Assembly (NCBI RefSeq): GCF_015644585.1
Contig: NZ_JADOBI010000001.1
Location: forward strand, 310,001 to 374,000
Direction of reading: 5' to 3'
Length of the DNA: 64,000 nt
Source of the DNA: Rahnella laticis
GTDB lineage: Bacteria > Pseudomonadota > Gammaproteobacteria > Enterobacterales > Enterobacteriaceae
Part shown: in pieces, positions 43,211 to 48,057 of the stretch
Position numbering within the stretch: position 1 is the first letter of the stretch
Layout: each line of letters begins with the position of its first letter
Position numbers and translations under genes: made by a program
Notes under the pieces: generated by a model
Told to the model about the DNA's origin: nothing
What the model saw: only the letters and a program-made list of their open reading frames with translations
Database searches by the model: none

Positions 43211-44587
43211 ATGTCTGCTAAACCTTCTGCCGCTCCGGCGACTCAGCGCGTACAACTGCGTAAAACCCTGACGCTGGTCCAGGTTGTGATGATGGGTCTA
43301 GCCTATCTGCAACCGATGACCATCTTCGATACGTTCGGCATTGTGTCCGGCCTGACCGATGGTCACGTCGCGACGGCGTACATCTTTGCGCTGATCGCCG
43401 TGCTGTTTACCGCCGTCAGCTACGGCAAACTGGTGCAGCGTTTCCCGTCTGCCGGTTCTGCTTACACTTACGCGCAAAAAGCCATCAGCCCGCACGTCGG
43501 CTTTATGGTCGGGTGGTCATCATTGCTGGACTACCTGTTCATGCCGATGATCAACATCCTGCTGGCAAAAATTTACCTGGAAGCCATCTTCCCGGGTGTC
43601 CCGTCGTGGATCTTCGTGACCGCGCTGGTCGCGATGATGACCGCGTTCAACCTGCGTGGCATCAAAGTGGTGGCTAACCTCAACAGCATTATTGTTGTGG
43701 TTCAGGTCGCGATCATGGTGGTCTTCCTGGGGCTGCTGGTCCGTGGCGTTTACATGGGCGAGGGCATGGGCACACTGGCGACAACGAAACCGTTCTTCAG
43801 TGAAAACGCGCATGTGGTGCCGATGATTACCGGTGCGACCATCCTGTGCTTCTCGTTCCTCGGCTTCGACGGCATCAGCTCGTTGTCTGAAGAAACGCCA
43901 AACGCGGGTAAAGTCATCCCGAAAGCGATTTTCCTGACCGCACTGATTGGCGGCGTGATCTTCGTGGTGGTGTCGTACTTCCTGCAACTGTACTTCCCGG
44001 ACATCTCGCGCTTTAAAGATCCGGACGCTTCACAGCCTGAAATCATGTTGTACGTGGCCGGTAAATTCTTCCAGTCCGTCATCCTGTGCTTCAGCTGCGT
44101 CACCGTTCTGGCATCCGGCATGGCCGCGCACGCGGGCGTTTCCCGTCTGCTGTACGTGATGGGCCGCGACGGCGTATTCCCGGAGAAAGTGTTCGGTTAC
44201 GTGCATCCGAAATGGCGCACCCCGACGTTCAACGTTCTGCTGGTCGGTGTTGTGGCGATGTCTGCTGTGACCTTTGATCTGGTGACCGCCACGGCGCTGA
44301 TTAACTTCGGTGCATTAGTGGCCTTTACCTTCGTGAACCTGTCGGTGATTTCCCAGTTCTACATCCGTGAGAAGCGTAACCGTACGCTGAAAGACCACAT
44401 CAACTATCTGGTCCTGCCGGTGATCGGTGCGCTGACCGTCGGTGCGCTGTGGCTGAACCTCGAAGCCAGTTCGATGACGCTCGGTCTGGTGTGGGGCGCG
44501 ATTGGCCTGGGGTATCTGGCGTTTATCACCAATGCGTTTCGTAAGCAGCCGCCGCAGATGAGCGGGGAGATAGCGCCGGAAGCTTGA
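43211..44587 (+). CDS. puuP: Putrescine importer PuuP
   Basis: Twelve-helix APC-family proton symporter for putrescine. The 458-residue sequence has [19 protein letters not shown] at the first helix, [19 protein letters not shown] and [19 protein letters not shown], all as in E. coli PuuP. The ATG follows GGGAGGA. Its stop overlaps the left end of the palindromic element. Confidence 0.95.
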
Positions 44588-45266
44588 TTGCAGGAGGCCG
44601 CTGTAAATTGGCGGCTTAAAAATAAAATTCAAAGTCGTGGGCGTCGGCCCACACCGCAAAACCTTGGGCTCGCCGCCCAAACTGGCCCAAAGGGCGCGTT
44701 AACGCGCGCGCCCTCTGGACACCCGCGCTTTTTAACTGCGCGCTATCGCTCGCTGGCTATTTTCCAGCGGCTCCGGAAAATGCCGCAAAATCCCGCCGCT
44801 GCGCGGTTCCTTCCAGTCGGATTACAAACCGCGCGAAAAAATACGCGGTTTTCCACCTCTCCTTTCAGCGTGATTTTTGAAAGCGGCCAGAGGCTTTTTA
44901 GTTCACAACCTCGCCATGACATTCATAATTTTGAAAAACAAAGAAGCCTCAAAATCGATTCTTTCAAAGTTGAGATGGCGCGCTCAGAAATTTTGCTGAC
45001 CGAGGGTTCGAGACCGCAAGGCTCGAAGCCCTCGAGGAAGGAACCGCGCAGCGGCAATATTTCGCGCCATACGCAGGAGGAACAGAACATGTCCGTCGTC
45101 CCAGCGGTAGCGCGTGTTGGAAAAAAGCGTGGGAGATCAAAGAGGGAGGCGCTTTCCTCCCTCTTTGGCGGTTTCGGCGCAGCGCGTTAAGTGATCACTG
45201 CTATTGAGAAACCGAAACTTTCTCGGTCAGTGTTGAAAAGCCGCCGTTGCAGCGGCCTCCTGCAAT
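44587..45266. repeat. 680-bp imperfect palindromic (foldback) element
   Basis: The two halves are inverted copies around a centre near 44925. Outer ends: ATTGCAGGAGGCCGCTG (44587-44603) and its exact complement (45250-45266). Middle: GCCGCTGCGCGGTTCCTTCC (44795-44814) and its exact complement (45036-45055). Inner: GAGGCTT (44890-44896) and AAGCCTC (44944-44950). Between these, both arms share further imperfect matches, and each arm has local hairpins, such as AAAGAGGGAGG / CCTCCCTCTTT near 45139-45166. The outer ends also form the terminator hairpins of puuP and sbcB. It holds an open frame 44588-45190 that I regard as incidental. Confidence 0.8.
45089..45190 (+). CDS. Possible 33-residue basic peptide inside the palindrome
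   Basis: ATG at 45089 lies eight bases after a perfect AGGAGG; the frame gives a very basic N-terminal half (VARVGKKRGRSKREA) and ends SLFGGFGAAR. Nothing else supports it, and the palindrome makes chance frames likely. Function unknown. Confidence 0.3.
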   Translation: MSVVPAVARVGKKRGRSKREALSSLFGGFGAAR

Positions 45267-46696
45267 TAAGAAACCAATTTCTTCCCGTATTCAAACAGCG
45301 CCCCGAGAAGCGCTATTTTCTCAGAATCACCCTCATACAAGTTATAGAGCGATTCAAGCTCTAAAATGTACGCCTGAACACGCTCATCGGTGAGCTTCGT
45401 CTGGCGATGCTGGATCCAGCGCTTTTGCTCGGCGTCGGTCAGCGTTGCGGGGTAATTGCGTGCGCGGAAGCGGAACAACAGCGGTTCGATGCGCGAATCA
45501 TTAAACGTCAGATCCAGTGCCGGAAGGTTTTCCGGGCGTGTCTCAAGGATAATCCGCATTGCGGCGCGATCGGCGTCGCTGAAGAAACCGTCGTACAGAC
45601 GGGCATCGACATCGTCGGAAGCGGTGAACGGCTCGGCTTCGGCAAACATCGTCACCACTTTTTCACGCACCTGCGGGTTCTGGCGCAATATCTGAAGATT
45701 CTCCAGACAGCGCTGGCGGTCAATGCCCAGACGTTCGGCGTTTTCCGGCAACAACGTTTTGGCCGGAGCCAGCACCGGACATTTATTGATGTGAACCAGT
45801 TTGACCGGCAGCGGAGATTGCCCGGCCTGCAAACTGTCGCGGCGACTGTACAGGCGCTCACGCATCTGGTCGGGGTCGAGATCTAACAGCGTGGACATAT
45901 CGCCCGCCAGATCGCACATGATCACGGCGTTTTTGTTTTCAGGATGCCAGGCCAGCGGCGCGACCCACGCGGTATTGCCGCGCGCAGCACCAAACATGCC
46001 GGAGACATGCACCAGCGTCGCCATCGCCGGAATATCAATCAGCGTATTGAGTTTGTGTTTGCTGCGGTGTTCGAGCAGGAAACTGAACAGACGCGGTTGC
46101 GCCTGTTTAACCAGTTTTGCCATCGCAATCGTGGCGTAAACGTCGGCCATCGCGTCGTGGGCATTTTCATGTTCGATGCCATTAGCTTTGGTCAGATGTT
46201 CAAGACGAAAACTCGGGAAACCGTCGTCGTTTTCCGGCCAGTTGATGCCTTCCGGGCGCAGCGCGTAACAGGCACGCATCACATCCAGCAAATCCCAGCG
46301 GGAATTACCGTTCTGCCAGCTGTAGGCGTACGGGTCGTAAAAGTTGCGATAAAGGATATTACGGCTGACTTCGTCGTCGAAACGGATGTTGTTGTAGCCC
46401 ACAATACAGGTGCCCGGCACGCTAAACGCTTTATGGATTTGCGCGGTGAACTCCGCTTCGATCACGCCACGTTCCAGCGCAATCTGCGGAGTAATTCCGG
46501 TGATCATCACCGCTTCCGGTTCTGGCAGATAATCATCAGAAGGGCGGCAATAAATCACTAACGGTTCTTCGATGATATTGAAATCTTCGTCAGTTCTCAC
46601 CCCGGCAAACTGCGCCGGGCGGTCCAGCGCCGGATTTTTACCGAATGTCTCGTAATCATGAAAGTAGAAAGTAGGTTGTACTGGTTTGTCTGACAT
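45266..46696 (-). CDS. sbcB: Exodeoxyribonuclease I SbcB
   Basis: 3'-5' single-strand DNA exonuclease used in mismatch repair and recombination. The 476-residue sequence has the DEDDh nuclease motif HDYETFG (Asp14, Glu16), CIVGYNNIRFDDEVSRN, HDAMADVYATIAMA, then SH3-like and C-terminal helical domains. It is the last host gene before the prophage. Confidence 0.96.
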   Translation of the reverse strand: MSDKPVQPTFYFHDYETFGKNPALDRPAQFAGVRTDEDFNIIEEPLVIYCRPSDDYLPEPEAVMITGITPQIALERGVIEAEFTAQIHKAFSVPGTCIVGYNNIRFDDEVSRNILYRNFYDPYAYSWQNGNSRWDLLDVMRACYALRPEGINWPENDDGFPSFRLEHLTKANGIEHENAHDAMADVYATIAMAKLVKQAQPRLFSFLLEHRSKHKLNTLIDIPAMATLVHVSGMFGAARGNTAWVAPLAWHPENKNAVIMCDLAGDMSTLLDLDPDQMRERLYSRRDSLQAGQSPLPVKLVHINKCPVLAPAKTLLPENAERLGIDRQRCLENLQILRQNPQVREKVVTMFAEAEPFTASDDVDARLYDGFFSDADRAAMRIILETRPENLPALDLTFNDSRIEPLLFRFRARNYPATLTDAEQKRWIQHRQTKLTDERVQAYILELESLYNLYEGDSEKIALLGALFEYGKKLVS

Positions 46697-46875
46697 TGCT
46701 TTATTGCGCCTATATTCGTATGTATTTGTCTATTCAAACCAACGTGTTAACTACATTCTTTGTCTTATTTCGTCCTATCCTGTCTTATAAATCCCAAATA
46801 AAACTAAGCTAGTCCAGTTGATCAATGGTACACATTGGGTACAAAATTCATTTTTCTCTGTGTACAGAATATATC

Positions 46876-48057
46876 ATGGCTCTCAGCGATACTAAATTAC
46901 GTTCACTTCATGGCAAGCCGTACACAGGGAGCCCAGAGCTTTCTGATGGTGACGGGCTTGGTGTAAGAATATCACCTCTCGGCGCTATGGCCTTCCAGTT
47001 TCGATATCGCTGGGAGGGTAAGGCTCAGCGCATATCTCTTGGCAAGTATCCCGCAATGGGACTGAAAGATGCCAGAGCCCTTGTTGGCGAACTCCGCCTG
47101 TTATACGACAAGGGAATAAATCCCCGCACTCACTTTGACACAAAACATGCTTCATCCGATCTGACAGTCGGCGATTGCCTGGAGCATTGGATGAATGGTT
47201 ATGTACGCACTCAGTTGCGTACAAACACCATTAATCTGTACGAGGCAGTTGTGGTAAAGCACATGAAAGATTCGTTTAAAGGCCGCTCGGTAAGTTCAAT
47301 CTCCGTTAAAGATTGGATCGGCTTCTTCGGCGCTCAAGAAAAGGAAGGCCAGAAGCGTGCACGCATGATGTTTATTCAGGCTAAGTCGGCGTTTAGTTGG
47401 TGCCTGCGTCGTCAGTTGATAGACAGATGCGAGATGATGCGCATTGAGCCCAAGGACGTTGGTCAGCGGTCTGAGACTGGCGAGCGCGTTCTGACATTTA
47501 ACGAGTTGGCCCAAATCTGGATCGCCATCGAGAAAACCCGTGCATCACCCGCCAACAAATATCTTCACCAGCTCGTCATGCTGTGGGGGTGTCGTCTGTC
47601 TGAGCTTCGCCTGTCGCTCAAGCAGGAGTTCGACCTGACGGATCTGATTTGGACTGTGCCGAAAGAACATAGCAAGATGGGAAATATTATTCGCAGGCCT
47701 ATTTTCTCACAAGCTCAGCCCATAATAGAAAGATTAATGGATGCATATGACAACGTTATGTTCCCCGGGCATGACATTAATCAGCCGATCAGCATAGCCG
47801 CTGCCAACCGGTACATTGGTCGTATTCGAGATGAAATGGATGGGATGGGTTACTGGAGGGCGCACGACTTCCGACGCACCGTTGTTACCAGATTGTCGGA
47901 AGAAGGCGTAGCCCCACACGTCACTGAGAAGATGATGGGGCATGATTTGGGTGGAGTGATGGCAGTTTATAACAAACACGATTGGCTGGATGAGCAGAGG
48001 CGGGGATATGAAATCTTTGCTGATAAGCTGCTCTGGCACATTAAGAATGTGAAGTGA
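46876..48057 (+). CDS. int: Prophage integrase (P4-type tyrosine recombinase)
   Basis: A 393-residue tyrosine recombinase: DUF4102 arm-binding N-terminus (LSDGDGLGVRISPLGAMAFQF), core-binding domain, and catalytic domain with Arg in LWGCRLSELRLS, HDFRRTVVTRLSEEG, and the nucleophile Tyr in GGVMAVYNKHDW. The ATG at 46876 is chosen because MALSDTKLRSLHGKPY is the family start; the frame is open to 46825. There is no tRNA beside it. Confidence 0.94.
   Translation: MALSDTKLRSLHGKPYTGSPELSDGDGLGVRISPLGAMAFQFRYRWEGKAQRISLGKYPAMGLKDARALVGELRLLYDKGINPRTHFDTKHASSDLTVGDCLEHWMNGYVRTQLRTNTINLYEAVVVKHMKDSFKGRSVSSISVKDWIGFFGAQEKEGQKRARMMFIQAKSAFSWCLRRQLIDRCEMMRIEPKDVGQRSETGERVLTFNELAQIWIAIEKTRASPANKYLHQLVMLWGCRLSELRLSLKQEFDLTDLIWTVPKEHSKMGNIIRRPIFSQAQPIIERLMDAYDNVMFPGHDINQPISIAAANRYIGRIRDEMDGMGYWRAHDFRRTVVTRLSEEGVAPHVTEKMMGHDLGGVMAVYNKHDWLDEQRRGYEIFADKLLWHIKNVK

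Follow-up and report, generated by a model that had tools for sequence, protein, structure and literature searches.

Results

An imperfect palindrome between puuP and sbcB

Within the window (the whole stretch of 64,000 nucleotides of Rahnella laticis DNA analysed here), a puuP-like amino-acid permease gene with a Pfam AA_permease_2 match (43211-44587, plus strand) is followed by sbcB, which has an NCBIfam exodeoxyribonuclease I match (45266-46696, minus strand). An imperfect palindrome with its centre near 44925 occupies the gap from the end of puuP (last base 44587) to the end of sbcB (last base 45266). The inverted symmetry claimed for this gap in the initial annotation was confirmed by a repeat search and by alignment of the arms. 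The repeat search found a 44-nt inverted pair at 80% (44771-44814 / 45036-45079, centre 44925) and, overlapping the two stop codons, a 24-nt pair at 92% (44583-44606 / 45247-45270, centre 44926.5). These two pairs bear out the symmetric blocks described in register around about 44925, and the 24-nt pair the proposed overlap of the element ends with the puuP and sbcB stop codons. The aligned arms are indeed inverted copies, but not of about 340 bases each as first described: the repeated unit is a core of 206-218 bp, or about 240 bp with its outer part, and the outermost 80 bp or so on each side consist of other small hairpin modules and gene-adjacent terminator-like hairpins that lie outside the arm core. 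The two arm cores share 62% identity, whereas 200 mononucleotide shuffles of one arm give a mean of 45% and a maximum of 53.6%. The RNA fold of the element reaches -334 kcal/mol, and 20 shuffles average -232 (z -19). The features are as follows.

44583-44606: left outer inverted end, with the puuP stop and a GGCCGC-type hairpin (24-nt inverted pair)
44637-44652: outer module B, small hairpin GTGGGC..GCCCAC (sequence); recurs at other copies (by eye)
44664-44681: outer module A, small hairpin TTGGG..CCCAA (sequence); recurs at other copies, also in tandem (by eye)
44670-44887, minus strand: left arm core, class GCb, running centre to outside (profile match; class by pattern)
44686-44717, minus strand: left arm hairpin 2 (P5), from the fold; columns about 186-224 of alignment A1
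44782-44887, minus strand: left arm P1-P2-P3 domain (structure on alignment A2)
44888-44976: central spacer, AT-rich, 89 bp
44977-45182, plus strand: right arm core, class GGa (profile match; class by pattern)
44977-45068, plus strand: right arm P1-P2-P3 domain (structure on alignment A2)
45138-45167, plus strand: right arm hairpin 2 (P5), a perfect 12-bp stem
45170-45213, plus strand: outer module C, GGTTTC..GAAACC hairpin (sequence); recurs in other copies
45247-45270: right outer inverted end, overlapping the sbcB stop (24-nt inverted pair)

Outer module A and the outer margin of the left arm core overlap, and a hairpin like that of the left outer end was also seen by eye behind puuP in other genomes of the genus. 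Protein coding was considered for a 200-aa open reading frame (44588-45190) and rejected, as neither Pfam nor NCBIfam matched the frame with an E of 0.001 or less. Just past sbcB lies a tyrosine integrase gene (Arm-DNA-bind_3, Phage_integrase; 46825-48057), and alignments of the window with five other genomes stop near 46.7 kb, so an island may begin there.

A dispersed family of head-to-head arms

A first profile was built from seven arms and then iterated; it finds mostly a minus arm, a spacer and a plus arm. Alignment A1 holds 96 of 99 arms, three with inserts being omitted, and alignment A2 holds 59 of those 96. The covariance model R1, made from 59 arms, matches the left arm of the window at 44732-44887 (137.1 bits) and the right arm at 44977-45121 (127.4 bits). 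With 150 candidates scored per genome (150 of 2906 here), R1 finds at least 117 arms in the same Rahnella genome, and BLAST with the element gives at least 117 matches there (40 of 91 candidates scored), in both query orientations; the element is multi-copy, not a single copy. Paired by position within 1.5 kb, the R1 arms form 48 head-to-head pairs, no pair in any other orientation, and 21 single arms, nine of which lie within about 700 bp of a contig end. The initial annotation had asked why so large a palindrome persists beside sbcB; the element occupies one of 69 arm places in the genome (48 pairs and 21 single arms), and its nearness to sbcB looks coincidental, the address being the sole tie in the data.

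Element matches were found in all 14 genomes of the genus that were searched, this one included, with R1 arms numbering at least 101 (G009), 57 (G011), 32 (G002), 12 and 11 in other genomes. Outside the genus, one genome of genus g25 has at least 71 arms and one of genus g115 at least 26. In the family-wide sample, for which 10 candidates per genome were scored, matches at E up to 0.001 occurred in 15 of 295 genomes and 7 of 154 genera. The head-to-head pair recurs at four of the five g25 loci searched (L071, L072, L073 and L086; L087 has one arm). In g115 arm units also stand in tandem (L075, L076), with three minus-strand units in a row at L076, and at both loci the arms adjoin short tandem repeats of AAATTC and AAGGTC type. 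Extra same-strand arm fragments occur at four named Rahnella loci (L106, L107, L116, L126). Weak R1 matches appear in four more genera (g2, g23, g114, g151), and those in g151 and g23 look related by eye. Three weakly matching loci (L078, L079, L081) have a common GAAGGCACCGCGTAGCGGC core with a different, longer P2 region, and are possibly a distant branch of the arm family.

Plasmid matches to the element come from Rahnella in 11 of 11 records, and a 24-base arm pattern searched in contigs of one genome per species hit 58 stretches, 55 in Rahnella, two in Hafnia psychrotolerans and one in another member of the Enterobacterales. E. coli genomes gave no match to the right arm at E values of up to 1. 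A phage or P4-type origin was considered and rejected: the whole element has no match in phage records, the right arm alone matched there only 59 Mycobacterium phage records, over 32 bases and at a best E of 0.2, and the arm 24-mer has no exact match in viral contigs. As evidence against a mobile element, the lack of whole-element phage matches and of the 24-mer in viral contigs has little weight where the element is chromosomal. At the gathering score, Rfam 15 recognises only two tRNAs in the window, and its best match to the element has an E of 2.9, so that no Rfam family covers the element.

Conserved pairing in the arms

In a hand-set structure on 59 arms, each arm folds into a long stem in two parts (P1), a junction from which hairpins P2 and P3 extend, and a short P4. 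The structure has 27 pairs, with 93.0% of cells paired and 16 of the 27 pairs changed on both sides. Its covariation score of 0.278 compares with 0.117 for shuffles (0 of 500) and no more than 0.086 on sliding, controls that leave the relatedness among arms in. P2 takes three different hairpin forms (classes a, b and c), and hairpin 2 (P5) is very variable in sequence with its pairing kept. The complementarity between the hairpin-2 loop and an upstream arm segment is 4.13, against 3.64 after re-pairing (300 permutations, maximum 3.79; 116 unique combinations, 186 of 194 arms parsed), relatedness again being left in; the match is only three bases long in some arm classes and may be a loop or pseudoknot contact. 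Of the putative long structured RNA suggested at the outset, the conserved pairing is supported.

Could each arm encode a structured non-coding RNA, transcribed outwards from the centre, so that every element held two such genes? The conserved branched pairing with its covariation and the loop pairing of hairpin 2 would fit this reading, as would the excess of G-U over A-C on the centre-to-outside strand (31 against 7) at 22 well-paired positions. Over all 27 pairs, however, the counts are 49 and 25, and column composition by itself would give 106 and 79. Folding energy also favours the centre-to-outside strand, but composition accounts for -4.4 of -6.9 kcal/mol in P1-P3 and -9.8 of -13.1 in the core (32 of 96 arms tested); the strand argument, strong when the difference first appeared large, was dropped after these shuffles, and the sense strand is not fixed by energy because the difference is mostly base composition. 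No convincing promoter was seen by eye in the varied spacers. We regard RNA genes as an unlikely account of the arms. Read from the gene inwards, hairpin 2 is followed after about 10 nt by T5 (by eye), an arrangement looser than that of a textbook terminator, in which the T run comes straight after a G+C-rich hairpin.

Placement behind gene ends and towards the terminus

Two-arm elements span 509-714 bp from arm to arm. Among the 35 elements with both neighbours, out of 41 at the first set of loci examined, 20 lie between convergent genes, 15 between tandem genes and none between divergent genes. Background gaps longer than 60 bp were 51 convergent, 115 tandem and 58 divergent (224 gaps, taken from six mutually orthologous regions of 64-74 kb, which are not independent, with gene calls by simple longest ORF). 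Single arms turn their outer end to the 3' end of a gene in six of seven inspected, the seventh being ambiguous, and in the 15 tandem cases one arm of the element faces a gene start. In three genomes, elements are commoner towards the replication terminus among the matches listed on the main chromosome. In G009 (dif at C1:1331723, dnaA at 3618928; 86 of 101 arms typed), 29 of 49 listed elements fall within an eighth of the chromosome length of dif, where 12.25 would be expected. The same distance holds 12 of 21 listed elements in G011 (5.25 expected; 31 of 57 arms typed) and 6 of 11 in G002 (2.75 expected; 14 of 32 typed). Family, head-to-head order, conserved pairing and placement are all patterns observed in the data.

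Sites are kept while arms differ

At the puuP-sbcB site, eight of 14 genomes carry two arms of at least about 190 profile positions, two (G004, G009) one full and one partial arm, one (G013) only the outer remnants of both arms, and three (G002, G006, G012) no arms. It is the sole arm site in 64-74 kb of synteny from five other genomes, four of which have it occupied. In the gap of two arm-free genomes (L058 of G012, L065 of G002), REP/BIME-like CCTCCCC..GGGGAGG hairpins stand where others have arms, and similar hairpins occur inside the spacers of several arm elements. Such spacer hairpins, and the three of 14 genomes with hairpins of this kind only, are what would be expected if the symmetry were a heap of ordinary terminators, REP/BIME hairpins and chance between convergent genes. 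That reading is contradicted by a dispersed family with at least 117 covariance-model matches in the genome, and likewise by the fixed head-to-head order and the covariation in the arms, and we consider it highly improbable.

Many other element sites recur in named species. At 14 sites of the genome that are shared with others, the flanks are 88.7% identical and same-site arms 74.4% (36 arm comparisons, some sharing sites; one of 37 arms had no counterpart and was left out of the means). A closer arm exists elsewhere in the genome itself in 30 of the 36 comparisons, at a mean of 89.4%; this contrast with 74.4% is overstated, because the own-genome best is a maximum over about 65 arms. The left arm of the window shares 69.2% identity with the arm at the corresponding site of Rahnella sp. 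AA and 97.7% with an arm elsewhere in its own genome; for the right arm the two values are 77.9% and 84.7%. Some sites preserve one arm next to a partner that belongs to another class (L014/L121, 98.0 and 63.0%; L029/L104, 95.7 and 62.4%; L023/L089, 93.5 and 75.5%); at L015/L119 both arms are kept (95.4 and 87.1%), and at L033, L035, L044 and the window site both differ. Five comparisons show same-site arms kept at 95-99%.

These site comparisons bear on the initial suggestion of a MITE-like mobile palindrome. On such a reading the element would be non-autonomous, its arms would be very long terminal inverted repeats acted on by a transposase encoded at another place in the genome, and any central genes would be cargo. 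Many copies in both query orientations, presence or absence at a site across species, and the PemK, Peptidase_C92 and HTH_35 genes found between arms speak for it. However, the two arms within a copy resemble each other less than re-paired arms do, contrary to what fresh terminal repeats would show; the ends are not uniform, modules A, B and C alternating between copies (by eye); sites are common to, and often occupied in, several species; and at the one site read out neither a target-site duplication nor a clean empty site was seen by eye. In excerpts from PMC2229807, bacterial MITEs measure about 100-200 bp and have uniform-ended terminal inverted repeats, against 509-714 bp and the alternating modules of the Rahnella elements. 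MITE-like transposition is not supported by these results, and we hold it to be rather improbable.

Unlike arms and spacer length

Among the 28 of 41 placed own-genome elements in which both arms are full length, the arms within an element are 0.649 identical (maximum 0.72), against 0.694 when re-paired (p_low 0.0002, 5000 permutations). Pairs of the same subfamily class, as set by hand-written patterns, number 13 of 74, against 28.3 expected and a minimum of 15 in 5000 permutations. In 98 elements pooled from several genomes, longer spacers go with greater arm likeness (rho 0.30, p 0.003). Spacers measure 594-1022 bp in the four most alike pairs (0.73-0.80), the fourth of which (0.732) lies barely above the top short-spacer pair (0.729). 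The six long-spacer elements come from four sites, three of the six from a single one. As stated in portions of PMC7999016, the risk from a palindrome is higher with longer, more similar repeats and with shorter or no spacers. Unlike arms, and likeness that rises with the spacer, are as palindrome instability predicts. In E. coli, SbcCD cuts a 246-bp interrupted palindrome in lacZ, with hairpin cutting and recombination repair described in parts of PMC4125073; its arms are on a similar size scale, but it is an engineered insert, whereas the Rahnella arms are natural and about 65% identical. SbcD scored above the family cut-off in all five genomes tested. The unlike arms could also arise if an element must have two different halves in order to function.

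Centres lost and filled

Collapsed forms with only the outer modules occur at puuP-sbcB in G013 and at another site in G004 and G005. Genes lie between the arms at three sites, each between convergent outer genes; they encode a PemK-like protein, a Peptidase_C92-type protein, and an HTH_35 regulator together with a 130-aa protein without a Pfam family. A fourth long-spacer element is L070. At the PemK site, three of 14 genomes have arms and gene (G000, G009, G010), two arms without the gene (G003, G011), three remnants (G004, G005, G008), five neither, and one the gene without detected arms (G013). Target-site duplications were not seen by eye at this site in nine genomes, and arm-free sites carry other sequence that blurs the junctions. 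PemK/MazF-like genes stand between arms at L168:2289-2774 and L167:2327-2809; inspection of their surroundings by eye revealed no antitoxin gene. Further patterns that can be read directly from the comparisons are the unlikeness of paired arms, the presence of other subfamilies at shared sites, the remnants and the central genes.

Discussion

Gene conversion in REP evolution was raised by Higgins in 1988, going by the title as cited in PMC2267715. The BIME/REP mosaics of enterobacteria resemble the Rahnella elements in being intergenic mosaics of inverted hairpin modules. The family unit, however, is about 240 bp with several helices and a branched fold, compared with 20-40 bp for the REP unit in passages of PMC3733652. 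In addition, the family consists of head-to-head pairs of unlike arms, and the REP-like hairpins are a separate repeat in the spacers. ERIC (RU-1) is likewise an imperfect intergenic palindrome with a strong RNA fold; as described in the abstract of PMC2759123 and in PMC2229807 it measures about 127 bp and has terminal inverted repeats, target-site duplications and TA ends, whereas the Rahnella two-arm elements measure 509-714 bp and their ends are not uniform. The judgement that the element is too large for a REP or ERIC has held, given a foldback of about 240-bp arms with conserved pairing. YPAL (RU-2) of Yersinia and Erwinia carotovora, also multi-copy and folding as RNA, differs in its published size of about 168 bp. 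The arm family works like a giant BIME, beyond the size of REP units and of MITEs and without the uniform ends of the latter. A literature survey by titles and abstract openings, with most subscription journals outside its scope, returned no description of this arm family.

The reading that we favour, with moderate confidence, is that of dispersed BIME-like two-armed elements at gene 3' ends, evolving by arm exchange under palindrome instability. Each arm of about 240 bp drifts in sequence while its base pairing stays. The head-to-head arms, mostly behind gene ends, would most probably act as a boundary, or transcript end, that faces both ways, and the pattern of arm likeness suggests that elements renew mainly by recombination between copies. 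Where arms become too alike and lie close, the palindrome would form hairpins that may be cut by SbcCD; the cut element would then be repaired from another copy, replacing one arm, or its centre would be lost. The expected outcome is stable pairs of unlike arms, persistent sites, collapsed remnants and occasional central genes.

More tentatively, and with considerable doubt as to the whole of it, the arms may constitute an undescribed family of large structured RNAs or DNA hairpins, numbering as many as about 100 in a genome and more frequent towards the terminus. Its head-to-head pairs would be self-renewing gene-end sites that exchange arms by palindrome-triggered recombination and are able to take up genes, such as the PemK-like one, in their centres. 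With dozens of quasi-palindromes per genome, Rahnella lets palindrome stability be studied as a natural experiment: close arms seem limited in how alike they can be, and arms far apart seem to reach a higher likeness. The family also makes concerted evolution testable in steps of half an element, and it presents a conserved fold without an Rfam family and a spot for genes to settle between convergent genes.
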